DNA from: Xanthomonas sp. 3793 | GTDB taxonomy: Bacteria; Pseudomonadota; Gammaproteobacteria; Xanthomonadales; Xanthomonadaceae | Direction: 5' to 3' | Assembly: GCF_024806835.1 (NCBI RefSeq) | Contig: NZ_JANTYU010000004.1 | Location: forward strand, 558,001 to 622,000 | Length of the DNA: 64,000 bases | Shown here: positions 30,003 through 44,374 of the stretch, one piece after another | How positions within the stretch are numbered: the first letter of the stretch is position 1 | How the letters are laid out: every line of letters starts with the position of its first letter | Notes under the pieces: model-generated | What the model was told of the DNA's origin: nothing | Database searches by the model: none | What the model saw: only the letters and a program-made list of their open reading frames with translations | Made by a program: the position numbers and the translations under genes

Positions 30003-30093
30003 GCGTGCGTCGCCGCATATTCGGCGACCGGGATTGGCGTCCCGGAACCTGAGGCGCACAAGCGCCCATCGATCGATGCATGGCGCTTTTTTT
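30003..30093 (+). ncRNA. candidate structured leader RNA ending at a terminator
   Basis: Downstream of a TTGACA hexamer (29973-29978) and a GAGTAT hexamer, the sequence can fold into GTCGCCG/CGGCGAC (30009-30028), then CCGGG/CCCGG with loop ATTGGCGT (30028-30045), then a terminator hairpin with a T-run. This gives a compact RNA of about 90 nt. The fold and terminator are seen; that it is a stable RNA is inferred. Confidence 0.4.
30061..30093 (+). terminator. leader terminator
   Basis: AGCGCC (30061-30066) pairs with GGCGCT (30082-30087) and is followed by TTTTTT. It would stop transcription before the small genes at 30255, unless transcripts read through, so it may act as an attenuator. Confidence 0.6.
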
Positions 30094-30254
30094 ATCGCCC
30101 GCATCGTCGCGGGCGCATGCCGGCCAGCTTTATGGCGGGCGGTGCGCGGGGGTCGCAAGGCCCACCGGTCCTCAGGCCGGCACGCCAACCGCGTACCGTC
30201 CGTCACCCGGATTGGCGTCGGGGTGACGGATTTCCAAAACCTGAGGAAATCCAT

Positions 30255-30868: not shown

Positions 30869-31035
30869 TGCGTTCCATGGGTGGCCCACTAGCAATCGCA
30901 CTGACTGAGTAAATTATTGAATTAAAAAGGCTTTAGCAAAGCCCGGAGATGGCCTTAATGCCAATGCCCCTTTCGCTGCCAATACTTGCCCTACACTCCA
31001 TGCCCGTTAACCTTGTGACAGGCAAGAGGGGCGAT

Positions 31036-31881
31036 ATGGCACGGGGCACAGACTGGTTTCATGAAGAAGTGGAGGCCTGCGTCGCCGACTACTTGCACAT
31101 GCTGACTCTCGAACTGAACGGCCAGCGCTACAGCAAGACCGCCCACGCACGCGCGTTGGCCGAGCGGCTTGACGGGCGCAACCGACCCGCCATCGAGTTC
31201 AAGCACTGCAACATCAGCGCCGTCCTGCTCGCGCTCGGCTACCCGTACATTGATGGCTACAAGCCGCGTGGCAACTACCAGGCCCTGTTGTTCGACGTGG
31301 TGGGAGGTCAGGCTCAGTCGGACGATGCCCTGCAGGCTGCCGCCCAATCCGCCGTGCTGCGGCCGGCCGTCATGATCGCCCCAGACGATACTGATGCCGT
31401 GTGGGTTCCGGCACCGGCAACGGCGCGGGTACGAGAGATACCACCCAGCTACCTGCCTCTGTTTTCACCGGCCCAATGCGACTACCTCGCGCAAGAAGCG
31501 CGGAACCGCTCGCTCGGTCGCGCTGGCGAGTTGTTTGTGATGGAACTGGAAAACCGGCGCCTTCATGCAACCGGCCAGAAGCGGCTGGCCAATCGAGTTG
31601 AACACGTGGCCGCTTCTCAGGGCGACGGCCTGGGCTACGACGTGCTCTCCTACGAGACCGATGGCCGTGAGCGACTCATCGAGGTCAAGACCACCGCGTT
31701 CGGCATTCTGACTCCATTCCACGTCAGCCGCAACGAACTGGCGCGCTCTGAAGCTGATGCCAGCCAGTACCACCTCTATCGTCTCTTCGACTTCCGCGCA
31801 CGGCCCCGTCTTTTCGAACTGCCCGGCGCTATCGCATCCCATTGTCGTCTCGATGCGGTTACGTATCTAGCACACATCTAG
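31036..31881 (+). CDS. DUF3883 (PD-(D/E)xK-like) protein
   Basis: The 281-residue protein has an N-terminal helical domain with DWFHEEVEACVADYLHML and a C-terminal DUF3883 domain. The latter shows GRAGELFVMELE (E165), GYDVLSYE (D202) and LIEVKTT (E216, K218), a plausible PD-(D/E)xK nuclease core. DUF3883 proteins are common in restriction and phage-defence loci. The start is the ATG behind AGAGGGG; upstream in-frame codons are not supported. It stands alone, 570 bp before the large NTPase gene on the same strand, and may be an independent defence gene. Confidence 0.7.
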   Translation: MARGTDWFHEEVEACVADYLHMLTLELNGQRYSKTAHARALAERLDGRNRPAIEFKHCNISAVLLALGYPYIDGYKPRGNYQALLFDVVGGQAQSDDALQAAAQSAVLRPAVMIAPDDTDAVWVPAPATARVREIPPSYLPLFSPAQCDYLAQEARNRSLGRAGELFVMELENRRLHATGQKRLANRVEHVAASQGDGLGYDVLSYETDGRERLIEVKTTAFGILTPFHVSRNELARSEADASQYHLYRLFDFRARPRLFELPGAIASHCRLDAVTYLAHI

Positions 31882-32454
31882 GAGCGAGTCAGCCATGAGT
31901 GACTGCTCTCAGCCAACAGCTGACATTCGGCTATCACCAAGGCGACCTACGGGAAAAGGCAAAAACTGGGCTGGAACCACACTGGCTGCTTCTGAGCCGC
32001 AAATCGTGCTGAATGGACATTCGTTTAGGCTGGCCCTTTCAAGGCCGATCATTCTCGAGGACATAGCATAGGCAGCACCACCGGCGGCGCCGATGCCGAC
32101 GTCACCGTAAATTGGCTCAAGAAGTTCTTCGGCGACGTGGAAAGGCAAACGCTTTTTCTTCAAGAACGGACTGGATAACGCGGCGCTAAAGCATCTCGAG
32201 ACGATTCAGGTGCTCCGCACCTAGAAGAAATCGCGCAGATGGCGACCCAACAGCCTCTCCGCCGGATCGCGCGAGTTCGCGCTCGTGCCGTGGCCACCGG
32301 CGCTGGAGCGCCAGCTCAGCAAGCCAGTCGCAGGCATCATGCTTGGCGATGGAACAACTGGCAGTTCGTCGCGGCCGTGGCGGACCAACTATCGCTTGAC
32401 CGCTCCTTGTTCTCCCGCATGCTCTCCTATACTTGATGAGAGGGGGGAAGAACG
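31882..32454. other. decayed stretch before the NTPase gene
   Basis: About 570 bp with interrupted short frames. One piece (32070-32170) has coding-like bias but hits stops in every frame. Near 32325-32370 a frame reads GIMLGDGTTGSSSRP, weakly reminiscent of Tn3-family transposases. A TATACT hexamer (32428-32433) may be the -10 of the NTPase promoter. Confidence 0.4.
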
Positions 32455-35400
32455 ATGTTCGAAATTACTGCCGCACAAGTCGCCGACCTCAATGACGCCG
32501 ATCTGCGGACACTCGTCGCTCGTCTCGCTTTGGCAGAATTGCGGGCCCAGGGTTGCCCCAGTTCGTCGGTGACCGCTGGCGGCAATCAGGATGCGGCCGA
32601 TGGCGGGCTTGATGTCCGGGTCGAGTGCCCGTCCACCCTGCTGATGCCGGATTTCGTGCCGAGCCAGCACACAGGGTTTCAGGTAAAGAAGCCCGACATG
32701 CCGGCGAGCGCAATTCGCAATGAGATGCGTCCTGGCGGCGTACTACGGCCGGTCATCGCCGAACTCGCCGCTCGCTCGGGCGCCTACATCATCGTCAGCG
32801 CGCAAGGGTCGGTCGCAGACAGGCCGCTGAGCGATCGTCGCGATGCGATCCGGGCGCAGCTAGACGATCTGCCTGAGGCCGGGCAGTTGCATAGCGACTT
32901 CTACGATCGCGACCGGCTGGCTACATGGGTCAATCACTATCCCGGGATTGCCGCCTGGGTCCGCATGCGGCTCGGCATCGGTATGTCGGGCTGGAGCAGC
33001 ATCGGCGATTGGTGCGGCGTCGGCGTGAGCGAGGAGACGCCCTATCTCTTCAATGACAAGGCTTGCCTAACTGATGAGCGAACGAGCGACCGCGAGCAAC
33101 TCACCATCGGCGAGGGTATCGCCCGGCTTCGCGTCTCTCTGACCAAAGCTCGCCAATGTATCCGGTTGATCGGCTTGTCCGGTCTCGGAAAGACTCGTCT
33201 CGTGCAGGCACTGTTCGAGGATGGTGTCGGCGAGGCGCCGCTGGACCCGGGGCTTGCCGTTTATACCGACTATTCGGTCGAGACTGACCCGATCGCCCGG
33301 GACATGGCGCGCCAGCTAGTCATCACACGGCAACGTGCGATCCTGATCGTCGATAACTGCAATCCGGCGACGCACAGCGAACTTGCCCGCATCTGTTCGG
33401 AAGCGGGGAGCCAGGTCAGCCTCCTCACGGTCGAATATGATGTTCGCGACGATGAGCCCGAGCGTACCGAGGTCTTTCGCCTGCAATCAGCATCGCCCGA
33501 AATGGTGGAACTGTGGCTGGAAAAGACCTTCCCCAATGTGACGCAGGTGGACAGGCGCACGATATCGGAGTTCAGCGACGGCAATTTCCGCGTGGCGCGC
33601 GCCCTCGCAGAAACCCTCGGGAAAGGCGAGACCCTGGGAAAGCTCAAGAGCCGTGACCTCTTCGAGCGGATTTTTCACCAGCGCAACGAGCCCGACCGGG
33701 ATCTCCTTTCCGCCGCCGAAGACCTTGCGCTGCTCTATTCGATCGATGGCGAAGACACGTCGGAAAGCGGCGAACTTGCGCGGGTTGCTGCTATTCGCGG
33801 CGCTTCCGTGGCGACGATATATGCGGCGCTGAACACGCTTCGTCAGCGCGGGATCGCGCAGCTGCGCGGACGGTGGCGCGCGATCCTGCCGCACGCGATC
33901 GCCAACCCGCTCGCCGGGTTCGCCCTCGAACGCATGCCCCCGGCCGATTTTGATCGCTTCTGCGCGTCGCTCACGGCGCGGATGCAGAAGTCCCTTTCGC
34001 GCCGCCTCGGCTATCTGCACGACAGCGCCGAGGCACGGGCCGCGGTCGAGCGCTGGCTCGGTGCCGACGGTCTTCTTGGCGATCTCAGGGCGTTGGGCGA
34101 AGACGGCCTCCAGATCATCACGAATATCGCTCCGGTCGCGCCCGATGCCGTGCTCGCAAAGATCGAGCGAGACGTGGCCGGGCCGCGCGGCGCCGAGATA
34201 CTCGATCCGCAGTCGAGCGACCGATGGCAGTGGATACGGTTGATCAAGCTCCTCGCTTACGATCCACCGCTATTCGACCGCGCGGCGACATTGCTTGCCC
34301 GGTTCCTTTCCGCCGAACCGCCCAATCACAACAACAACTCGGCATCCGACATGTTCGCCGAGCTGTTTCACCTGCACCTGTCCGGCACCAAGGCTTTGCC
34401 GGACCAGCGGCGATCGCTTGTGCGCCGGTTCGCGCAATCTGGTGATCCGGCTTTGATGCGCTGCGCCGGCGTCGCCCTCGATGCGCTGCTGAAGGCGCAC
34501 CATTTCAGTTCATCCAGCGACTTCGACTTCGGCGCCCGGTCACGCGACTATGGCTGGCACCCGCCGACCTATGGCGACATCTGGGCCTGGTACAACGGCG
34601 CGGTCGACTTGGCGGTCGAGCTTTCGCCAATCATCGAAAACGCCCGGGACCACCTTGCCCATAGCGTAAGGGAGCTGTGGCATTCCGGCGCCTGTCACGA
34701 TGCGCTCGAACGGGCAGCGAACCACTTCTCTTCCGAGCGGCCCTGGATCGAGGGGTGGATCGGCTTCCGCACAGCGCTGCGTTTCGAGGGCCACGCTATG
34801 CCTGATGAGGTGCGCGCGCGCCTCACCGCGCTCATCGACCGCCTGAAACCCACCGATCTTCTCCATCAGGCCCGTGCGGTGGTGCTGGGGCGTAGCAGTT
34901 TCGGTTGGGATGTCGCTGACGGTGATGCCGACGACGGCGATGTCATGAAGCCTTATGAGCGCGCCTCCCAGCTCGCGAAAGAGATCGGAACCGCGCTCGC
35001 GCACGACCCGGAGACGCGCGCTACCTTCATTGCCGAACTGCTCGTCGAACAACATCCGCAGCGCGCTTACGAGTGCGGCATCGGCCTGTCGGATGGCGCC
35101 GCCGATCTTGATGCGATGTGGCGGGAACTGCTGGGCCTCTTCTCTGCCGCCGATGTGGACAGCCGGAATGCGACGGTGCTGGGCGGGTTCATCCATGGCG
35201 CAAACGCCAGGGATTCGGCCTTCGCCGATGCCGCGCTGGAGGATGTGATCGAGAATCCCGATCTCGCCGCGAGCTTGCCCTATCTTCAGGCGCGTGTTGC
35301 TATCGATACCCAGGGCATTGCGCGGCTTCGGCGTGCGATTGAACGTGGCGTCCTGTCGGCGCGGACTTTTCACAGCATCGCCAATGGCAGTGTCGGCGAG

Positions 35401-36231
35401 TCTCCACCCGACGCGCTTGGGCCGCTACTCACCGACATCGCCAGTCTCGCCGACGGCGTGGAGATCGCGCTCGATATCCTTCACATGCACTTCTACCGCG
35501 ATCGGGAGGAGGGCCGACAACGCGCTCCATCCTTGATTGCCGTCGGCCGTGAGCTGCTGCTGCGCGCCGACTTCGGGAAGAAGCAGTCGCTTCGCGGTTT
35601 CGGGCTGCATACCGTCATTCGGGTCTGCTGCGCCGGACCTGATGGTGCGGCGACGCTGCGCGAGATCTGCGCGCGGGTCCGGGTCGGGCTTGAGACCGTC
35701 TATCTCTCGTCCTACGATCTTGGTTATGTCTTGAAGGCGCTCTTCGAAACGCATCCCCTCATCGCTCTCGACGAATTCCTGCTTCCTGAGCTCCGGCCCA
35801 GGAATCGGGGACTGTTTGAGGGGGACTTCGGGTCTGGCACGCCGGTGGAAGATGTCGGCGCCGAGACCCTTGCTCAGTGGGCGAATATCGATCCGGATCG
35901 GCGCTATCCGCTGCTTGGCAAAAGCATCTCTATGTTCAAGCGGCGGCAGGGCGAAGAGGAGAATGGTGTCTCCACGCTTTTCCTGGAAATATTGGGCCAC
36001 GCGCGAGACAAGCGGGCGTTTCTCGGTGATATCTGGTCGCGGCTGCATCCGCGCGGCTGGAGTGGCTCGCTCGCCGATATCCTGGTTCGGCGTCGCGCAG
36101 CTATCACAACACTGGGTGACAATGTCGGAGGCGAGGTTCGGCAATGGGTCACCGACATGCTGCCCGAACTGGAACGCTGGATCGAACATGAGAGCAAGCG
36201 CGATCGGGAAGGCGAGCAGAGTTTCGAATAG
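32455..36231 (+). CDS. nuclease-STAND NTPase, Avs-like antiphage sensor candidate
   Basis: The 1258-residue protein has three parts. Residues 1-175 look like a PD-(D/E)xK (Mrr/Cap4-like) nuclease: AADGGLDVRVE (D53) and FQVKK (Q76, K78). Residues about 220-480 form an NTPase with Walker A LIGLSGLGKT (239-248) and Walker B AILIVDN (D300), then a winged-helix-like segment. Residues 500-1258 are alpha-helical, like the repeat sensors of STAND proteins. Effector-NTPase-sensor is the layout of Avs defence proteins, which recognise phage proteins and then cut DNA. GGGGGAAG precedes the ATG. Codons favour CTC/GTC more than neighbours, suggesting transfer. The phage target is unknown. Confidence 0.75.
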   Translation: MFEITAAQVADLNDADLRTLVARLALAELRAQGCPSSSVTAGGNQDAADGGLDVRVECPSTLLMPDFVPSQHTGFQVKKPDMPASAIRNEMRPGGVLRPVIAELAARSGAYIIVSAQGSVADRPLSDRRDAIRAQLDDLPEAGQLHSDFYDRDRLATWVNHYPGIAAWVRMRLGIGMSGWSSIGDWCGVGVSEETPYLFNDKACLTDERTSDREQLTIGEGIARLRVSLTKARQCIRLIGLSGLGKTRLVQALFEDGVGEAPLDPGLAVYTDYSVETDPIARDMARQLVITRQRAILIVDNCNPATHSELARICSEAGSQVSLLTVEYDVRDDEPERTEVFRLQSASPEMVELWLEKTFPNVTQVDRRTISEFSDGNFRVARALAETLGKGETLGKLKSRDLFERIFHQRNEPDRDLLSAAEDLALLYSIDGEDTSESGELARVAAIRGASVATIYAALNTLRQRGIAQLRGRWRAILPHAIANPLAGFALERMPPADFDRFCASLTARMQKSLSRRLGYLHDSAEARAAVERWLGADGLLGDLRALGEDGLQIITNIAPVAPDAVLAKIERDVAGPRGAEILDPQSSDRWQWIRLIKLLAYDPPLFDRAATLLARFLSAEPPNHNNNSASDMFAELFHLHLSGTKALPDQRRSLVRRFAQSGDPALMRCAGVALDALLKAHHFSSSSDFDFGARSRDYGWHPPTYGDIWAWYNGAVDLAVELSPIIENARDHLAHSVRELWHSGACHDALERAANHFSSERPWIEGWIGFRTALRFEGHAMPDEVRARLTALIDRLKPTDLLHQARAVVLGRSSFGWDVADGDADDGDVMKPYERASQLAKEIGTALAHDPETRATFIAELLVEQHPQRAYECGIGLSDGAADLDAMWRELLGLFSAADVDSRNATVLGGFIHGANARDSAFADAALEDVIENPDLAASLPYLQARVAIDTQGIARLRRAIERGVLSARTFHSIANGSVGESPPDALGPLLTDIASLADGVEIALDILHMHFYRDREEGRQRAPSLIAVGRELLLRADFGKKQSLRGFGLHTVIRVCCAGPDGAATLREICARVRVGLETVYLSSYDLGYVLKALFETHPLIALDEFLLPELRPRNRGLFEGDFGSGTPVEDVGAETLAQWANIDPDRRYPLLGKSISMFKRRQGEEENGVSTLFLEILGHARDKRAFLGDIWSRLHPRGWSGSLADILVRRRAAITTLGDNVGGEVRQWVTDMLPELERWIEHESKRDREGEQSFE

Positions 36232-36595
36232 CTGCTGATCCGTGCATCCTCAGCGGGGCTCTGACGCCGATCGCGGCTCTCGCGGAGTCTTAGGCCGGAC
36301 CCGCCACCCTTTGCATTTCTGCCCGACGGCTTCGCGCTGGGCGAATGGCTGGTTTTGGCACACCGCTGCCGAACGGCTGCTTAGGGTCGGAAGCCGCCTG
36401 CGAGGTATTAGTGCGCTATCCGATACAGCTTGCGTGCCACCAAGATGGGATTAGGGATGAAGTCGCTAGGCAAGTTGCGAAAATTCTGAAGAAAGTCAGC
36501 GCCCCATCGCCGAATCTCGAAGAGCGCCGCATTGCCGTCGAGCGGTAATCCCACCCCCGATTACCGTACCATTCGAAAGTAGAGAATTCGACCTT
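36232..36595. other. gap between NTPase gene and IS fragment
   Basis: No supported gene. The sequence up to the transposase fragment has no recognisable IS end or direct repeat. Confidence 0.4.
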
Positions 36596-36909
36596 CTACG
36601 GCACCTGGCAATTCGCTTGGGACCCGCAATTTCGGGCGAATTCTTCAGGGGTTTTCCATGCCAGTGCACTGTGGGGTCGCTCCTCGTTATAGAAGCGCTG
36701 CCACGCTTCGATTTTGCTCCGCGCATCGGCCAGTGACAAGAACCAGTGCTCATTCAGGCACTCCTGCCGCAGGCGCCCGTTGAAGCTTTCCACCAGCGCG
36801 TTGTCGGTCGGTGTCCCTCTGCGGTAGAAGTCCAGCTCCACGCCGTTTTCATACGCCCAGCGGTCCATCACCTTGCCGGAAAACTCGCTGCCGTTATCCA
36901 CCTTGATCG
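36596..36909 (-). pseudogene. IS3-family transposase (OrfB) C-terminal fragment
   Basis: The minus-strand frame from about 36907 encodes IKVDNGSEFSGKVMDRWAYE and later DNALVESFNGRLRQECLNEH and RPHSALAWKTPEEFAR. This is the end of the DDE catalytic domain of IS407-group IS3 transposases with the second Asp (VDNGSEF) and the Glu (VESFNGR). The N-terminal part, OrfA and one IS end are missing. At 36909-36912 the sequence switches to a umuC-like frame on the other strand, so the element was truncated by deletion or recombination. Confidence 0.85.
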
Positions 36910-36911
36910 CC

Positions 36912-37079
36912 GAGAAGCTGATGGACGCCTTGGACGCTATCAACCGACGCTTCGGCCGGATTAAGGCCGGCCTGGGTGCAAGCGGGTGGCAGAACTCTCC
37001 AGCGTGGGCTTCGCGGCAAGAGCTCTTGTCGGGACGCTTCACTACCTCCCTGGCAGATCTTCCGCGCGCCACGTGCTGA
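36912..37079 (+). pseudogene. umuC-like (DUF4113) C-terminal fragment
   Basis: The + frame reads EKLMDALDAINRRFGRIKAG, later SPAWASRQELLSGRFTTSL and ADLPRAT before a stop. This matches the DUF4113 tail of Y-family DNA polymerase V subunit UmuC (family pattern: LMxxLDxINxRFGR...W.MR...LSPRYTTxWxELP). Only the last ~55 residues remain, abutting an IS3 fragment, so the gene is broken. Plasmids and islands often carry umuDC genes. Confidence 0.75.
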
Positions 37080-37721
37080 CGGCGCGCCAGCAGGCCTGAC
37101 TCAGCAGCTCGGCCTGGTTCCAAACTTATGCGGCACCTGCAGGCATTGCCAATCACGCGAGATGGGCGATAAGTGAGCGCGTGCTTAAGCGTAGGCGCAA
37201 GGCGGTAGCTGAAGCCCCTTACAGGCCCCTAATGGGAAATTTTTGGGATGATCACCGGAACAAGGTAATTTAGGTAATCCGCGCCAAGAAACACCACAAC
37301 CTTCATATTTATCAACAGCTTATTTAACAATATTAAAAGTAATTAAAGGGTAATTGGGAGGCAATGGGATTACCTTTTGGGGAGGTAATCAAGATCCTAA
37401 GAAATACTCCTAAATTTCAATCACATAACTTTTCTTCGGGAGGCTGATCACCCTAAATCACCCCAAAAGGCAATCTTGAATTTCCCAGTTGCATCAATCA
37501 ATTAGACCCTGTTTGAGGTCACTGATTACCGATTACCCGGTTCCGATGGCCTTTTACCGAAATGCGCCGGGAGGTCTAGCCACGGAACGCGGCCGCGCTC
37601 CCCCGCAAAGCCCCCAGGGCGCGCAGGGATCCGCAGGGAAGAGAGCCCCCCTTGAACCGCGCGGATCGGCAGCAGCAGCGCGGCCTACTGCCACCCTGCA
37701 GGGGTGCAGCGAAAACCATAC
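37080..37721. other. AT-rich gene-free region with GGTAAT motifs, then GC-rich stretch
   Basis: From about 37200 to 37535 base composition drops sharply toward AT and GGTAAT motifs recur (see repeat entry). From 37555 the sequence is GC-rich again with no convincing gene. Confidence 0.5.
37264..37537. repeat. cluster of GGTAAT motifs in AT-rich DNA
   Basis: GGTAAT occurs at 37264, 37273, 37349 and 37384 on the + strand and as ATTACC at 37369, 37525 and 37532, with a variant AGTAAT at 37339. Seven exact copies in 275 bp of AT-rich DNA resemble protein-binding arrays at origins or promoters of mobile elements. Irregular spacing argues against classical iterons. Confidence 0.5.
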
Positions 37722-37979
37722 ATGAAGACCGGAGGCGTGGCGGGGCGACGATTGCGCGCACCAGGGCCAACGCTGTCCGTAGGCGTTGGGGGTTTTCCTA
37801 CTGCGTCGGTCGCCGAAGACGGGCAACATAAGAGGCTGAATTCCCGTTCCAACAGGGCCTGCAGCATGCCCAACTTCTCCGCCTCCATTACTGGCGGTCA
37901 AGCACGAGGTGGGCATCTGACCGGGAGCAGCGAAGCGACCCACTTGTGGGCACCTGTTCGACGCATGATGGATTGTTGA
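37722..37979 (+). CDS. doubtful small ORF
   Basis: The frame reads MKTGGVAGRRLRAPGPTLSV and on to WAPVRRMMDC. It lacks a clear RBS and overlaps an open frame on the other strand. Similar short frames recur in Xanthomonas islands (from memory), which may reflect a repeated leader rather than a protein. Confidence 0.2.
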   Translation: MKTGGVAGRRLRAPGPTLSVGVGGFPTASVAEDGQHKRLNSRSNRACSMPNFSASITGGQARGGHLTGSSEATHLWAPVRRMMDC

Positions 37980-37991
37980 GAGAAAGCACCT

Positions 37992-38648
37992 ATGAACGAA
38001 GCAAAAGAAGCCCGCGCAACACTCCACAACGCACCTCAGAAAGGTGCTTTCTACATCCTCAGATCCGATATGGGGGGGGGCGGTCGCGGGCATGGCGTGG
38101 AGTTCGAGAACGAAGATGCAGTGCCATTCCCCATTGCCTACAGCCCGCCAGGCGAGGACGGGGGGCTAGCTGCATTGAAGGAGACCCCGCGCCTGCGCTA
38201 CGACAGCCGCATTGGCGATATGCCTGATGACCTTGATAGTGGATTCAAGCGCTACTGGCTGGTCTCAGAGCCACTGAAGCAGATCTTAGAAGCTGCGGAC
38301 CCAGAGGGCTTTGCTTTTGCGCTATGCGACTTCCGATTGGAAGATGGTACGCCCGGAGCACCGCACTATCTTTGTGAGGTAGTACGAATTATCGACGCCA
38401 TCGACGAGGAAGCATCCACTGTTAAGGTGCTGACCGGGTATCCAAATGGAAAGTATTACAGTCTTACAGGGGGCGCCGAGTTGGCATTTAGGAAAGACGT
38501 GGTTGGGGCTGCGCATGTCTTCAGAACACCGCATACGGCAGATACCTTTTGCGATCGCTTCTTGCGCGACACCCTGATTTCCCAGGGATTCGGCAAATCA
38601 CCCAAGAAGCGTGGCGTTCGACTAATCGACGCAGCAAATTACGGATAA
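37992..38648 (+). CDS. Imm11 (DUF1629) family immunity protein
   Basis: The 218-residue cytosolic protein matches the Imm11/DUF1629 family: FALCDFRLEDGTPGAPHYLC, then EVVRIIDAIDEEAS, GKYYSLTGGAELAFRKDVVG and AHVFRTPHTADTFCDRFLRD. Members protect against polymorphic toxins, often AHH-type nucleases, and an AHH-type gene starts 33 bp downstream. It probably neutralises that nuclease in the producer cell. The N-terminal ~70 residues include a Gly-rich loop (SDMGGGGRG). Confidence 0.85.
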   Translation: MNEAKEARATLHNAPQKGAFYILRSDMGGGGRGHGVEFENEDAVPFPIAYSPPGEDGGLAALKETPRLRYDSRIGDMPDDLDSGFKRYWLVSEPLKQILEAADPEGFAFALCDFRLEDGTPGAPHYLCEVVRIIDAIDEEASTVKVLTGYPNGKYYSLTGGAELAFRKDVVGAAHVFRTPHTADTFCDRFLRDTLISQGFGKSPKKRGVRLIDAANYG

Positions 38649-38681
38649 AAATTTCTCCGCATGGATTTGGAGTAAAGACAG

Positions 38682-41600
38682 ATGCCGGCCAGCAACGTCA
38701 TCCTTGAAAGTCATCATGTCATTGAAAACACCATCTTTCGTAAGCATGACTTGCTCAAAAAGTTGGCCGATCATGGTTTGATCGACAAGGATGTATCGAC
38801 CAATCGTCTCTATCTTCCTGTAGAAGGCAAGCTGGCTGACGAAATCGAAACCTCTCCCCACCGAGGACGCACCCGAAGCTCTTATACGGATGCAGTTATG
38901 GATTATCTTAACGATCTCGGTGACTCCTCCGATGGTCATGCCGCCATGTCCAACGACGCTGCCGCATTGAAGCGCGTCGCTGCCCAAGTCCACGACCTGC
39001 AAGACACTCTCAAAGTCGCACTGATCAATGGCGACATGTTCGCAACCACCCCGGATCACTTGACCAAGGCCGAGACCAACGCGCAAAACCACAGCACTAT
39101 TTCCGAATACGAGCAATACCGCACCGCCCACGCCGACCAGCTGAAGACGCTGCGCTCCATGAGCAATGTCGAATCCGAATGGGCCGCGATCACGCACTCC
39201 GAACATCGGATCACACAGGTGATCGACGCCGCACGCACGACCGGCAAAAATCTGGTCGCGGTCCCGGATGAACGCGATGCCGTTATCCGCGAGATCGCCG
39301 GCCGAGAAGAATTGCGCATGGCGATTGCGCACGCCGAAGATGCTGGCCGAATAAGGCTATCCGAGTCCAACGCGGCCTTGGCACATCAGGTGTTGGATGA
39401 CACGCCGACAACCATCGGCGGTGCTGCGCGCAGCATTCGCCAAGGCGCAGCCGCCACGTCGCATGCGCCGTATACACCAGTCTCGCAACGCGGCTTCGCC
39501 ACCGCAGAGCTACTGGCCGGCGATCTATCTGCCGGACAGGCGCTACGCACCGCCGGCCTGCTAGCCACCGCCGCCGACACGGTGATGACAGGCCAACGCG
39601 CCACGCAGTTCCTCGGCCAGGACAACCCGCTCGCTGCGCAGTCGGAGCTTGCGCACTTTGCCGGCCGCAACGTCGGCGGCTGGGCCGGCGGTACCGCAGC
39701 TGCCTACGCGCTGGGTAGCTCGGGCGCCGGGCCGATGGTGCTGATCGCAGCCGATGCGTATTTCTTGAGTACCGCTGGCGAGAAGGCCGCCGCGTTGCTC
39801 GACAACCGCGCCATCTACACCCAGACCGATCGCGAGGGCACGCAGTGGTCGTTCAACGGCACCGCCTGGGCACGCGAGGGCAAGGCCGACACCACCAACG
39901 ACGGGGTAGACAACCCCACCTCCACCCCCATCGTCGCCAGCTACGAGAAGGCACGCGAGCTCAATTACCAGGCCACCAACGCCGCTGCAGCGCTCGCCCT
40001 CAAGGATGCGCCCGCTCCGCAGGATCCGTATCGCCAGCCGGCCAATGCCACTGACCGCCCCAGCCTGAGCAGCGCCGACTGGCGACGCGATGCAGCGGAC
40101 GGTCAGTGGCATCGGCTGGTCAAGGCCGAGATCTCTGGCGCCAATGATCGCGGCAGCTACGTGCAGGAAACCGCCCTGCCGCACCGCAAAGCCGAACTGG
40201 ACGCGCAGGCGCAGGACACCATTGCCCGCAACATCGCCAACAGTCCCGCCGCGATCGCTGCGCGCTACGAACTGGCGCACCACCGCAGCGGCTGGGCGGC
40301 CGATGGCCTGCCGATGTCGCCAGCGGTGCAGCAGGCGCTGCCCGACCCAGATGCCTTGACCGCCTCAAACGGCCAGCGCTACTACCGCGACATCGAAGGC
40401 CAGTGGACCAGCAACGTTGCACCGCCCGATGGCAATCGCGTGCTGGAACTGGACACCATGCGCGCGATGTTGCAACCAGCGCTTGCCGAGCAGGCACAGG
40501 CGATTGCCACCATCCAGCAATCGCCGCAGGACATACAGGGCGAGCAGACACTCTACCGCTATCGCATTGTCGGCACCGAGTTGCAGCCGCAATGGCGCGA
40601 AGCAATCGAGCTGGCGACCCAGCGCACCCGCGAGGCAGAGGGACTTGCGGGCGACGGCGCGATGCAGTTGCAACGCGGCGCCGGTGGCACCTTCGGCGCC
40701 GATAGCCCGATTGCGCATCTGCAACGCGGCCCCGATGGCGTAGAGCGTATTGCAGTAGTCACCAGCACCGAGGACATCCGCCAGGCACTGAAGGAGATAC
40801 AGGCGCGGCAGAACCAAGCCTTGCCGATACAGCAGCTGGCCTCTGCGCATCGCTCATCGGACGGATCCGCAGATGCGGACACGTCGTCTTCCGCCCCCTC
40901 CAACCAGCATGCGCTCGACGTGCAGGCGCGGGGCCAGGCAGCCAGCGCCGGGCAGGAGCGTGAGGAGCGGCAGCAGGAGGACCGGCAAGCGCAAGACCAG
41001 CAGCTGGCGCAGGCACGCGCGCACACGCTGCAGGAGCAAACCTCGCACGAAGACCGAGCACAGGACGCTCAGGCACTGCAGGCGCATGCATTGCAGGAGC
41101 TTCGCCAGCAAGAATCGCAACAGCTGGAGCAACAAGAACGCCAGGTACAGGACGCTCAGCAACGCCAACAAGCCCAGCAGCAGGAGCACGACACCCAACA
41201 GCGCGAACAAGTCCAGCAGCAGGCCCAGCAGACGCGCCAGCGCGAGCAGGAAACACGCCAAGCCCAGGATGCCCAGCAGAGCCAGCAGGAACGCCTGCAG
41301 GCGCAGAAGGTGCAACATCCCGAGCAACAGCCGCTGCACGCCCAAGCGGCTCCACAACGCGAGCAGGAGCCGGCACAGGAAGCAGTCTCGCGCGAGCCGT
41401 CGTCGCTCCATGCGCAAGACACATCGCCGCGCCAGCCCGAGCAGCGGTCAAACCCGGATGACGTCGCCCAACGGCCCCAGGAGCAGTTGGTAGAGCCTGA
41501 GCAAGCACAGGCATCCGACGTAGCGCAGCAGCGGCCGCAAAGCCAACAAGCGCAAGGAGAGCGCCCGCAGGAAGCCCAGCAGCAGACAGCGCAGAGCGCG

Positions 41601-42650
41601 GCGATCGCGCAGACAGCACCGGCAGATCAGCAGCAGGTTTCGGACCTGCACAGCGGCCAACGGTCGATTAGGGCGCAAGGCTCGGATGCGCACCAAGATG
41701 CACCGACGCAGCAGCCCGAGCAGCCGGCGGAAGCGTACCTGGCCCAGGCAGCGACCGCGCCTTCTGCGCCATCGCTCGCCACCCCGGTGGCCGCAGAACA
41801 GCGCGACGATCAACAGGCGCGCACGCCAAAGGCTCAAACACCGGAAGCAGCAGATCCCCCTGCAGCGTTGCCAGGGTCCGCCCACCTCGCGCAAGCGACA
41901 GGGCCATCACTGGACCTACCGACCGCTGGCCGCTCCGCCGGTGCACCCGAGGGCGCGGCCGATGCGCGCGAGCCGCTTTCCGCCTCCTTGGCAGATGAGC
42001 ACAACCGTCCTGCCGCTGTGCCCGTCGATCCGAACTCCTGGGAGGAAATAGAGCGCTCCATGCGTGAGCTGCGCATCCAGCTCGAACAGGATCTCGAAAC
42101 AGAAAACCGCGTCGCAGAGGCGCGGCAGGCGCGCGTGGACCGTGGCGATCGGCCGTTTACAGAGTTGGAATTGCGTGATGGGTACGATCCGGATGGCCCC
42201 TCTGGACTGAGACCACCACGCGCCCCGCCGGCAGACACCGCGCCACAACCTCTTGCCGCTGGCGAGCAGGAAGATCGGCCGCAGCCCCAGCGTAAAAACA
42301 TCACCGGCGATCCGGATGTGGACGAGTTGCTGTACGCCATCGACTGCAAGAACGAACTGGCGATCGAACAGGCCTTGAAACGGGTCGCCAACAGTCCCTA
42401 CAGCCAGGCCCTTGCCAAACAAGGGCATGAATTTCTGGATGCCCAGGCGATGCAGGAAGCGCAGGAACAGGCGAGTACGCGCCAGGCACTGAACATGGAC
42501 GTCTCGACAGAGATGCAGACCAGCCGTGGCCCGGTGATGGTGATGACACTGCCGCAGTTCGCCAACGGACCGGCGATGCAAGGTCCGCAGGGTGACGGTG
42601 GTGGTGGCGGAGATGGCGGCGGTGGAGGCGGCGGTGGTGGTGGTGGATAG
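38682..42650 (+). CDS. giant AHH-type nuclease toxin, Gln-rich, poly-Gly C-terminus
   Basis: The 1322-residue protein begins MPASNVILESHHVIENTIFR. H11-H12, NRLYLP (41-46) and PHRGRTRSSYTDAV (H60) reproduce the AHH branch of HNH/Endo VII nucleases, here unusually at the N-terminus. Residues about 270-360 hold a Gly/Ala-rich hydrophobic segment (GRNVGGWAGGTAAAYALG) that may insert in membranes. Residues about 730-1080 are Gln-rich coiled-coil-like, and the end is poly-Gly. I do not see a clear XVIPCD, VgrG, PAAR or RHS domain, so the export route (T4SS or T6SS) is open. The upstream Imm11 gene is its likely immunity partner. Confidence 0.68.
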   Translation: MPASNVILESHHVIENTIFRKHDLLKKLADHGLIDKDVSTNRLYLPVEGKLADEIETSPHRGRTRSSYTDAVMDYLNDLGDSSDGHAAMSNDAAALKRVAAQVHDLQDTLKVALINGDMFATTPDHLTKAETNAQNHSTISEYEQYRTAHADQLKTLRSMSNVESEWAAITHSEHRITQVIDAARTTGKNLVAVPDERDAVIREIAGREELRMAIAHAEDAGRIRLSESNAALAHQVLDDTPTTIGGAARSIRQGAAATSHAPYTPVSQRGFATAELLAGDLSAGQALRTAGLLATAADTVMTGQRATQFLGQDNPLAAQSELAHFAGRNVGGWAGGTAAAYALGSSGAGPMVLIAADAYFLSTAGEKAAALLDNRAIYTQTDREGTQWSFNGTAWAREGKADTTNDGVDNPTSTPIVASYEKARELNYQATNAAAALALKDAPAPQDPYRQPANATDRPSLSSADWRRDAADGQWHRLVKAEISGANDRGSYVQETALPHRKAELDAQAQDTIARNIANSPAAIAARYELAHHRSGWAADGLPMSPAVQQALPDPDALTASNGQRYYRDIEGQWTSNVAPPDGNRVLELDTMRAMLQPALAEQAQAIATIQQSPQDIQGEQTLYRYRIVGTELQPQWREAIELATQRTREAEGLAGDGAMQLQRGAGGTFGADSPIAHLQRGPDGVERIAVVTSTEDIRQALKEIQARQNQALPIQQLASAHRSSDGSADADTSSSAPSNQHALDVQARGQAASAGQEREERQQEDRQAQDQQLAQARAHTLQEQTSHEDRAQDAQALQAHALQELRQQESQQLEQQERQVQDAQQRQQAQQQEHDTQQREQVQQQAQQTRQREQETRQAQDAQQSQQERLQAQKVQHPEQQPLHAQAAPQREQEPAQEAVSREPSSLHAQDTSPRQPEQRSNPDDVAQRPQEQLVEPEQAQASDVAQQRPQSQQAQGERPQEAQQQTAQSAAIAQTAPADQQQVSDLHSGQRSIRAQGSDAHQDAPTQQPEQPAEAYLAQAATAPSAPSLATPVAAEQRDDQQARTPKAQTPEAADPPAALPGSAHLAQATGPSLDLPTAGRSAGAPEGAADAREPLSASLADEHNRPAAVPVDPNSWEEIERSMRELRIQLEQDLETENRVAEARQARVDRGDRPFTELELRDGYDPDGPSGLRPPRAPPADTAPQPLAAGEQEDRPQPQRKNITGDPDVDELLYAIDCKNELAIEQALKRVANSPYSQALAKQGHEFLDAQAMQEAQEQASTRQALNMDVSTEMQTSRGPVMVMTLPQFANGPAMQGPQGDGGGGGDGGGGGGGGGGG

Positions 42651-42690
42651 CCGGAACACGTGTAGCAAGTTGAATCATCGAGAGAACACT

Positions 42691-43326
42691 ATGGACATGC
42701 AGAACACCTCCGCACTACCCGATGCCAACGGGTCGGAACGCACCCTAAAAGAATCGATCCAGGCCCTGGCGGCGATGATCGGGACGCTGCAGCGGCGCGA
42801 GCACGCCTTGGACGATCTGCTCCGGGAGCAGCTGCAGCTTCTGCAGAGCGCCGTCAACAGTGCCGATCAGCGCGTCAATCGCGTGGTGGAAAGCGCACTT
42901 CCCCGGCTAACGCAATTGAGCAATCAGGCGCTGACGCAAACGTTGGAACCGGCGGCCGAGCGATTCAACAAGAGAATGGCAACTGCGGAGCAGACGGTCC
43001 AGCAGGCAACCCAGCGTTACGCGCACGCACAGCACGCCCTGGAAAACACGACAACGCGGCGCATGTGGATCGCATCGATTGCCCTGCTGGTGGCGGGTGT
43101 CATCAGCGTCGTCGTCGCTGGCTATGCGCTCTACAGCACAAGAGCGGCTGTCGCGGAAGCCGCCCAACTCAGGGCAGAAATTACCTTCTTGGATCGTGTT
43201 GCTCGTGCCAATCTCGTTGCCTGTGGTAAGGACAGGCTATGTGCCGAGATTGACAAGAAAGCAGCGCGCTACGGTGATCGCGGGCAGTATCGCCTCATAA
43301 ACTTGCGCAATGACACGACTCGCTGA
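42691..43326 (+). CDS. coiled-coil protein with C-terminal membrane segment
   Basis: The 211-residue product starts MDMQNTSALPDANGSERTLK. A long heptad-rich region (about 20-135) leads to a transmembrane helix (MWIASIALLVAGVISVVVAG) and a ~45-residue tail with a Cys pair (LVACGKDRLCAEID). RBS GAGAGAA precedes the ATG. It follows the toxin gene closely and may be an accessory, secretion adaptor or second immunity factor; no family is recognised. Confidence 0.62.
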   Translation: MDMQNTSALPDANGSERTLKESIQALAAMIGTLQRREHALDDLLREQLQLLQSAVNSADQRVNRVVESALPRLTQLSNQALTQTLEPAAERFNKRMATAEQTVQQATQRYAHAQHALENTTTRRMWIASIALLVAGVISVVVAGYALYSTRAAVAEAAQLRAEITFLDRVARANLVACGKDRLCAEIDKKAARYGDRGQYRLINLRNDTTR

Positions 43327-43397
43327 TCATGGCTAGGCTTACCATGCAATTATCCTGACGCCAAACTGCAATCCCCTTCAATGGACATAGCAATTCT

Positions 43398-44024
43398 ATG
43401 AGCGAACCTCTGAGCGAGCCTTTGATACTTGGCGTGATTGCTGCGATTGCGGCGTTGTTGGGCTCACTTGTTGGGGCAAGCATTCCCACCACACTTTCCT
43501 GGTGGATTCATTACCAACAGCGAGAATCTGACATTGGCTATCTAGCTGTGACAGTTGGAGCCATCCTCGATCGTTACATCAGCGGCTGTATTGATGTCAT
43601 GTATGACGATGGCATGCCGGACGCCGATGGCGAAACAGTACCAAGGGTTTCCTCACCCAGGTTGGAACTCTCTGCGCTAAACGTGAACTGGCGCTCTATC
43701 CCGGTCACTTTGCTAGATCGCATCTTTGCGATCCCAAATGCTCAACTATTGGCCCAAGATCGACTAGCCTGGGAGGCTGAATTCAGCGACTACCCAATTC
43801 TTGTGCGACAGATCGAGTACGGAAAGCTAGCGGAGAAGACTTTAAACGTAGTCAATGCACTGCGAAAGCATGCATTACTGCCAACCAGTCCGGAAGGCCG
43901 GCTCGATTACTCGGGAATGATCGAACAACACTTACCCAAGCTGGTCAAGAGACAACAAGAAATCGAGCAACAGCAGTGGACTCCGATCTTCCAACAGGAT
44001 GAAGCCGCCCCAGAGGACGGCTAA
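43398..44024 (+). CDS. hypothetical membrane-anchored protein (208 aa)
   Basis: The protein has one N-terminal transmembrane helix (ILGVIAAIAALLGSLVGASI) and a soluble domain rich in helices (EKTLNVVNALRKHALLPTSP), ending in QQQ-rich and acidic residues. It is the last gene of the toxin-linked set. Codon bias is weaker than core genes. Function unknown; a membrane-associated immunity or sensor protein is possible. Confidence 0.58.
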   Translation: MSEPLSEPLILGVIAAIAALLGSLVGASIPTTLSWWIHYQQRESDIGYLAVTVGAILDRYISGCIDVMYDDGMPDADGETVPRVSSPRLELSALNVNWRSIPVTLLDRIFAIPNAQLLAQDRLAWEAEFSDYPILVRQIEYGKLAEKTLNVVNALRKHALLPTSPEGRLDYSGMIEQHLPKLVKRQQEIEQQQWTPIFQQDEAAPEDG

Positions 44025-44050
44025 CAGCATTAATTCCTTTTTTGCACCGA

Positions 44051-44374
44051 TTACAACTGACCAATCCGGCTCTTGGTGACCTCTGCATAGTGCTCAGTCT
44101 TCTCTACCCCGGTCCAGCAATAGCCTTCTAACTCCGCTGCTACCAACGTGGTGCCACTACCGGCGAACGGATCAAGCACGCGCCCACCTGACTCACAGAT
44201 CCGCACCAGCTGTCTCATCAACTCGGTCGGCTTACCGGTCAGGTGATGCTTGTCAGCCTTGCGCACCGACTCACGGATGACACCCGGCAGCAATGGTGCA
44301 CGGCGATCCAGCGGCATGTTGCCCTTGCTGCCCCACACGATGTATTCGGCCTGGTTCCGTAGCCCGAAGGGGTC
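44051..44374 (-). pseudogene. C-terminal fragment of a DNA methyltransferase
   Basis: The minus-strand frame reads FGLRNQAEYIVWGSKGNMPL, KADKHHLTGKPTELMRQLV and GGRVLDPFAGSGTTLVAAEL. This is the C-terminal half of a beta-class N4/N6-adenine DNA methyltransferase with the SAM-binding FAGSGTT motif. The catalytic (D/N)PPY half is missing, and upstream of about 44374 the frame is unrelated and runs into the tRNA gene. The remnant borders the island end. Confidence 0.75.

Follow-up and report, generated by a model that had tools for sequence, protein, structure and literature searches.

A stand-alone PD-Lambda-4_A gene of Xanthomonas sp. 3793 that probably encodes an NLR-like anti-phage receptor

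The 64,000-nucleotide stretch of Xanthomonas sp. 3793 analyzed here (the window; contig NZ_JANTYU010000004.1, positions 558,001 to 622,000) carries a 1258-codon open reading frame (ORF) at 32455-36231 on its plus strand. We consider it likely that its product is a stand-alone anti-phage member of the PD-Lambda-4_A family that works as a bacterial NLR-like receptor, with an architecture resembling that of plant and animal immune receptors. The computed evidence for this reading comprises full-length family membership, a STAND fold, invariant residues of catalytic type, effector exchange among relatives, purifying selection and horizontal spread; the location of the gene in a variable segment, next to a PADLOC candidate defence gene, was also counted in favour of a defence role. 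An original prediction, made from the letters alone, had described a single 1258-residue gene within a decaying island. The single gene is borne out, as the ORF is open from its ATG start to its TAG stop and matches a family model over its full length, but the picture of decay does not suit this gene, which remains intact and is, as set out below, under purifying selection.

PADLOC has two models, A and B, for the anti-phage system PD-Lambda-4. The A model, PDLC03991, aligned from its position 3 to 1283 with residues 1-1258 of the window protein at 1204.7 bits, and because a defence-family model spans the whole protein at this score, the ORF is not a chance one. Nothing other than PD-Lambda-4_A models matched in the PADLOC scan at E <= 1. 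All 65 sequences in our alignment of the N-terminal half match PDLC03991 (E <= 0.01); the A protein of one relative, L110, scores 2529.9 bits against the PD-Lambda-4_A model, and the window protein shares 30-34% identity with it and with the A protein of a second relative, L081. The gene is a member, lacking B, of a known defence family, and thus not a new kind. Other resources said little about it: Pfam returned three sub-threshold matches, two of them AAA, which do not identify the protein, NCBIfam had no family for it at E <= 1, and phmmer against the PDB gave nothing at E <= 10. A profile of the N-terminal half produced 16 weak PDB matches, including the NB-ARC proteins Roq1 and NRC1, and a profile of the C-terminal half had no convincing PDB match. 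A scan for sigma-70 promoters upstream of the gene found none.

A table in PMC10952713 credits PD-lambda-4 to Vassallo et al. 2022 and gives it a P-loop NTPase domain. In the sections available to us, that study (PMC9519451) reports 21 systems obtained by phage selection in E. coli, with validation via phage plating described in its section 7; the name PD-lambda-4 is absent from its main text, figures and supplements lying outside this scope. The system also appears in a DefenseFinder listing in PMC13268207. Our literature search, which covered titles, the beginnings of abstracts and passages but not subscription papers, figures or supplements, returned no description of PD-Lambda-4 as STAND or NLR-like.

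Conservation was assessed with the window protein (P0001) and 72 full-length proteins from loci L024-L120, leaving out incomplete, late-starting and contig-edge ORFs; an 85% identity filter reduced the set to 65 sequences, that is, the window protein and 64 homologues. Residues D49, G51, D53, Q76, K78, E90, G240, G243, G245, K246 and D300 are identical in 65/65, as is an N-terminal D-x(22)-Q-x-K signature. The features named in the original prediction, D53, Q76/K78, an LSGLGKT loop and a Walker B motif, are therefore real and invariant. D53 abuts a strand at 54-57, and Q76 and K78 lie within a strand at 72-78, a strand order that fits a nuclease. A stricter pattern, D[GD]GxD...QxK, was found in 96 of 107 N-termini. 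Both catalytic groups were visible on inspection in 10 of the 11 that missed it, with one neighbouring residue changed, and the remaining miss, L008, has its start placed too far upstream. The N-terminal domain is thus a probable DNA-cutting nuclease, putatively of PD-(D/E)XK type.

The central domain has a Walker A motif, GLSGLGKT, and a Walker B motif, ILIVDN, and both Foldseek and VIA-align recovered a STAND fold of NLR/Apaf-1-like type. Sequence identity to NLR-type STAND proteins (Apaf-1, NLRC4, NRC1 and 6mfv) is 12-14%, and effector and sensor differ from theirs. An AlphaFold2 model of residues 470-1258 has a mean pLDDT of 89.6, and from residue 561 onward it is predicted to be almost entirely helical; the best Foldseek folds for this solenoid are HEAT-like (importin-13 and transportin-3, E 1e-4 to 5e-4). 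The proposed order of effector, NTPase and sensor thus stands, with the invariant signature at the N-terminus, the STAND fold in the centre and a helical solenoid at the C-terminus, and the sensor is helical as had been said, though it measures ~700 residues (561-1258) and not ~750. The last four residues of the protein have pLDDT values below 50, and the conserved Phe-Glu tail, disordered in the model, could possibly be a short binding motif.

We suggest the following scheme. At rest, the STAND module (179-560) would be nucleotide-bound and the protein inactive. During infection, a phage component would be bound by the C-terminal solenoid, and nucleotide exchange and oligomerization would then cluster the N-terminal nuclease domains (1-178). 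The clustered nucleases would cut DNA and so stop the phage, probably at a cost to the cell. Nuclease activity, oligomerization, the phage trigger and cell death are the elements of this scheme that we infer.

The strongest evidence that residues 1-178 are an effector is that the N-terminus has been exchanged in relatives. We examined 118 loci (the scan of genome contigs supplying 80 of 99 relatives), corresponding to 114 distinct best ORFs, with identical proteins in L002/L088, L003/L067, L004/L024 and L093/L117. The best ORF starts late in 11 of the 118, and in four of these, L072, L084, L090 and L099, another N-terminal domain lies ahead of the shared switch; the other seven (L054, L078, L083, L086, L094, L098 and L112) are either unresolved or truncated by a contig end or a frame break. 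In L072 (Photobacterium kishitanii) and L090 (Shewanella nanhaiensis), homology begins at residues 263 and 252, respectively, and the N-terminus is an alpha/beta-hydrolase above Pfam cut-offs (PF05057 in L072, PF07819 in L090), with the GHSxG motif present as GHSLG or GHSMG. The PADLOC model DUF626_VIII (PDLC02918), which we take to be the effector of retron type VIII, matches these two swapped N-termini (E 3e-23 and 6e-22), whereas the window gene lacks this domain. A hydrolase with 92% identity is encoded in L084 (Vibrio rumoiensis) as well, in a different frame, where it overlaps the start of the A-like ORF. In L099 (6491-8725; Psychrobacter sp. TAE2020), an N-terminal domain matching the Avs4 model (PDLC02169, residues 7-167, E 4.8e-61) precedes a PD-Lambda-4_A switch (E 9.3e-114). 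This fusion is 744 amino acids long and lacks most of the sensor, the remainder of which was not found within the available locus sequence.

A FastTree phylogeny of the shared switch (73 sequences, 486 columns) pairs L072 with L090 (support 1.0) and places L099 with L091 and L092 (0.979), both of which retain the usual nuclease. All three swapped members fall inside a 22-member clade (support 0.988) in which the remaining 19 bear the usual nuclease. Therefore, the N-terminal exchange occurred within the PD-Lambda-4_A family, and the tree is most simply read as reflecting two such events.

The family occurs patchily in the order: relatives, counting the one in its own genome, turned up in 3 of 61 closely related genomes and, across the order, in 12 of 397. 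They were also found in 17 viral contigs and in none of 50,697 phage records. Copies of a stretch of about 4.5 kb containing the window gene (Table 1) are present in Stenotrophomonas rhizophila (L024), Bordetella (L025) and a Dokdonella metagenome-assembled genome (L026), and a copy on a Sphingobium plasmid (L015) is limited to 32394-36359, with 94% identity and a shorter left limit. The near-identity of these copies in several genera shows that a single defence gene was transferred recently. The ratio of nonsynonymous to synonymous substitution rates (dN/dS) was 0.12-0.32 over 10 pairwise comparisons and 0.13-0.29 in the four involving the window gene, which is thus being maintained and is not decaying. 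We also considered the stretch as a transposon or cassette and rejected this reading. Imperfect inverted repeats at its ends were reached by 0/500 shuffles in L025 and 2/500 in L026, but they are not significant in the window (146/500) or in L024 (82/500); the end motif is no commoner in the genome than a reversed control, at counts of 10 and 11 against 16 and 16; and the left limit of the Sphingobium copy is shorter.

Systems callers require both A and B, and with no gene B beside A we do not count the window gene as a full PD-Lambda-4 system. It might be asked whether it is an inactive orphan, half of a two-gene system whose required partner has been lost. The existence of a PD-Lambda-4_B model in PADLOC (PDLC03992) speaks for this, as does the lack of any match to it in the gene's own genome, in a search whose E. 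coli control was positive. In L081 and L110, moreover, B-like sequence (10892 onward in both) begins 46 bases after A. Nonetheless, we regard the orphan explanation as unlikely. Searches for B in other genomes and records bearing A, 92 in all with one repeat (L093 and L117), gave matches in 2 of 50 and 1 of 42, one of these being marginal (E 7e-4), so that B is recognizable in just two. In neither B-bearing record is B found whole, L081 holding part of it and L110 an interrupted copy, and their A proteins are 94% identical (1201/1283) and paired in the tree. The near copies of the window gene are still under purifying selection, and there was no B match in the genomes of L024, L025 and L026 or on the plasmid of L015. 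A search for any other conserved partner, among ORFs of at least 80 codons within 1.8 kb of A in the 118 loci, was equally negative: the largest cluster spanned five loci.

A second alternative is that the gene targets plasmids or other mobile DNA instead of phages. Relatives lie on 41 of 72,556 plasmid records, 21 of the 41 typed as conjugative, which might suit a weapon aimed at rival elements. Plasmid carriage is, however, usual for phage defence too. Also set against this alternative is the attribution of PD-lambda-4 to a phage selection, as credited in the table of PMC10952713, and the phage plating used for validation in the section cited above (PMC9519451), and we think it improbable, more so than the loss of a partner.

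The preferred reading, an NLR-like anti-phage receptor, invites comparison with Avs, to which the original prediction had assigned the gene as a candidate. According to passages of PMC12931631, STAND proteins consist of an effector, an NTPase and a sensor, and the nucleases Avs1-4 respond to terminase, portal or a further phage protein; Avs1-4 share with the window protein the order of an N-terminal nuclease (putative in the window protein), a STAND centre and a C-terminal sensor. Because L099 joins an Avs4 N-terminal domain to the same switch, the suggestion that the window gene works like Avs is supported, and this much of the assignment survives. Membership of Avs itself is not supported. 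No Avs model matched the window protein at E <= 1 in PADLOC; the Avs2 and Avs4 models detect other proteins in the same library, and the same null result for Avs1, Avs3 and Avs5, whose models PADLOC presumably includes, came with no positive control. The original prediction named no Avs subtype; the gene can be placed, in the PD-Lambda-4_A family. An hhalign comparison with an Avs2-like alignment gave a probability of 5.9 for the N-terminal half (E 0.006, 73 columns around Walker A) and 0.2 for the C-terminal half. This is a weak test, the alignment consisting of five proteins, none above the NCBI Avs2 cut-off (0 of 299 genomes had one above it), and in it the N-terminus of L099 scored a probability of only 17.0 despite its Avs4 match at E 4.8e-61. 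No Avs structure was among the VIA-align matches listed, an absence that does not exclude such matches, and the importin- and transportin-like best folds of the window solenoid are a further point of difference from Avs. That the gene is a distant Avs1, Avs3 or Avs5 member beyond the reach of the PADLOC models would accommodate the shared domain order and the L099 fusion, but with no Avs model matching, although those for Avs2 and Avs4 detect other proteins, and with low hhalign scores from a comparison that covers Avs2-like proteins only, we consider it very improbable.

Table 1. Positions in the window of the gene, its domains and associated segments.
Feature	Position	Strand	Basis
PD-Lambda-4_A family gene, 1258 aa, nuclease-STAND-solenoid	32455..36231	+	open ORF, PADLOC match, dN/dS
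N-terminal effector, putative PD-(D/E)XK-type nuclease, residues 1-178	32455..32988	+	D53, Q76, K78; also D49, G51, E90
STAND/NLR-type switch, residues 179-560	32989..34134	+	Walker A 240-247, Walker B D300, GNxR 376-379
Helical solenoid, presumed sensor, residues 561-1258	34135..36228	+	AlphaFold2, Foldseek
Phe-Glu C-terminal tail, F1257 and E1258	36223..36228	+	conserved in 62/65 and 61/65
Shared stretch, ~4.5 kb, ~90-98% DNA identity, unrelated flanks, approximate limits	31899..36398		blastn
Variable segment with the gene, 13.5 kb	30901..44358		G210 collinearity breaks
PDC-S36 candidate defence gene, NOV_C domain, outside the system	30949..31881	+	PADLOC E 6.3e-108; PF13020 E 7.1e-20

The limits of the variable segment come from a genome of the same species, G210, which is collinear with the window as far as 30901 on the left and beginning at 44358 on the right. 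In between, G210 carries 7.25 kb of different DNA, including an Imm11/AHH-XVIPCD pair and a kinase-like gene close to PD-T4-6 models. Directly left of the segment, in a conserved block, matches to C4 antisense RNA (63.2 bits) and isrK (52.5 bits) at 30009-30210 are suggestive of a P4-like immunity region. Within the segment, the PDC-S36 gene lies just upstream of the shared stretch, and a fragment of an IS3-type transposase (rve_3, NF033516) is found directly right of the PD-Lambda-4_A gene at 36596-37156 on the minus strand. Positions 37992-42650 hold an Imm11 immunity gene (PF07791, E 1.2e-53) and, after it, the gene of a Gln-rich protein of 1322 amino acids whose AHH nuclease match is weak and slightly under cut-off; together they resemble an effector pair of interbacterial type IV secretion, and the pair that G210 carries in the same segment is a different one. 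Further right are a 244-amino-acid protein, possibly a coiled coil, with a weak ZorA-like match (42592-43326, E 2.1e-4) and, at the right end of the segment near a tRNA-Met, the PADLOC candidate PDC-S67 (43398-44024, E 4e-36). The Xanthomonas small RNA sX9 is also present.

Beyond the single gene, it is quite possible, though we stop short of calling it probable, that PD-Lambda-4_A constitutes a separate, widespread and mostly single-gene NLR-like lineage, in which one switch and solenoid are combined with interchangeable killing domains (its own nuclease, an Avs4 nuclease or an alpha/beta-hydrolase) and which senses a phage component unlike those of Avs1-5. If so, the B protein would be a lineage-specific add-on. 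If the A protein is viewed as a switch of NLR type whose effectors can be exchanged, the unexplained PD-Lambda-4 system becomes testable, and the Avs4 fusion that occurs in nature suggests that swapping of effectors is possible between STAND families.

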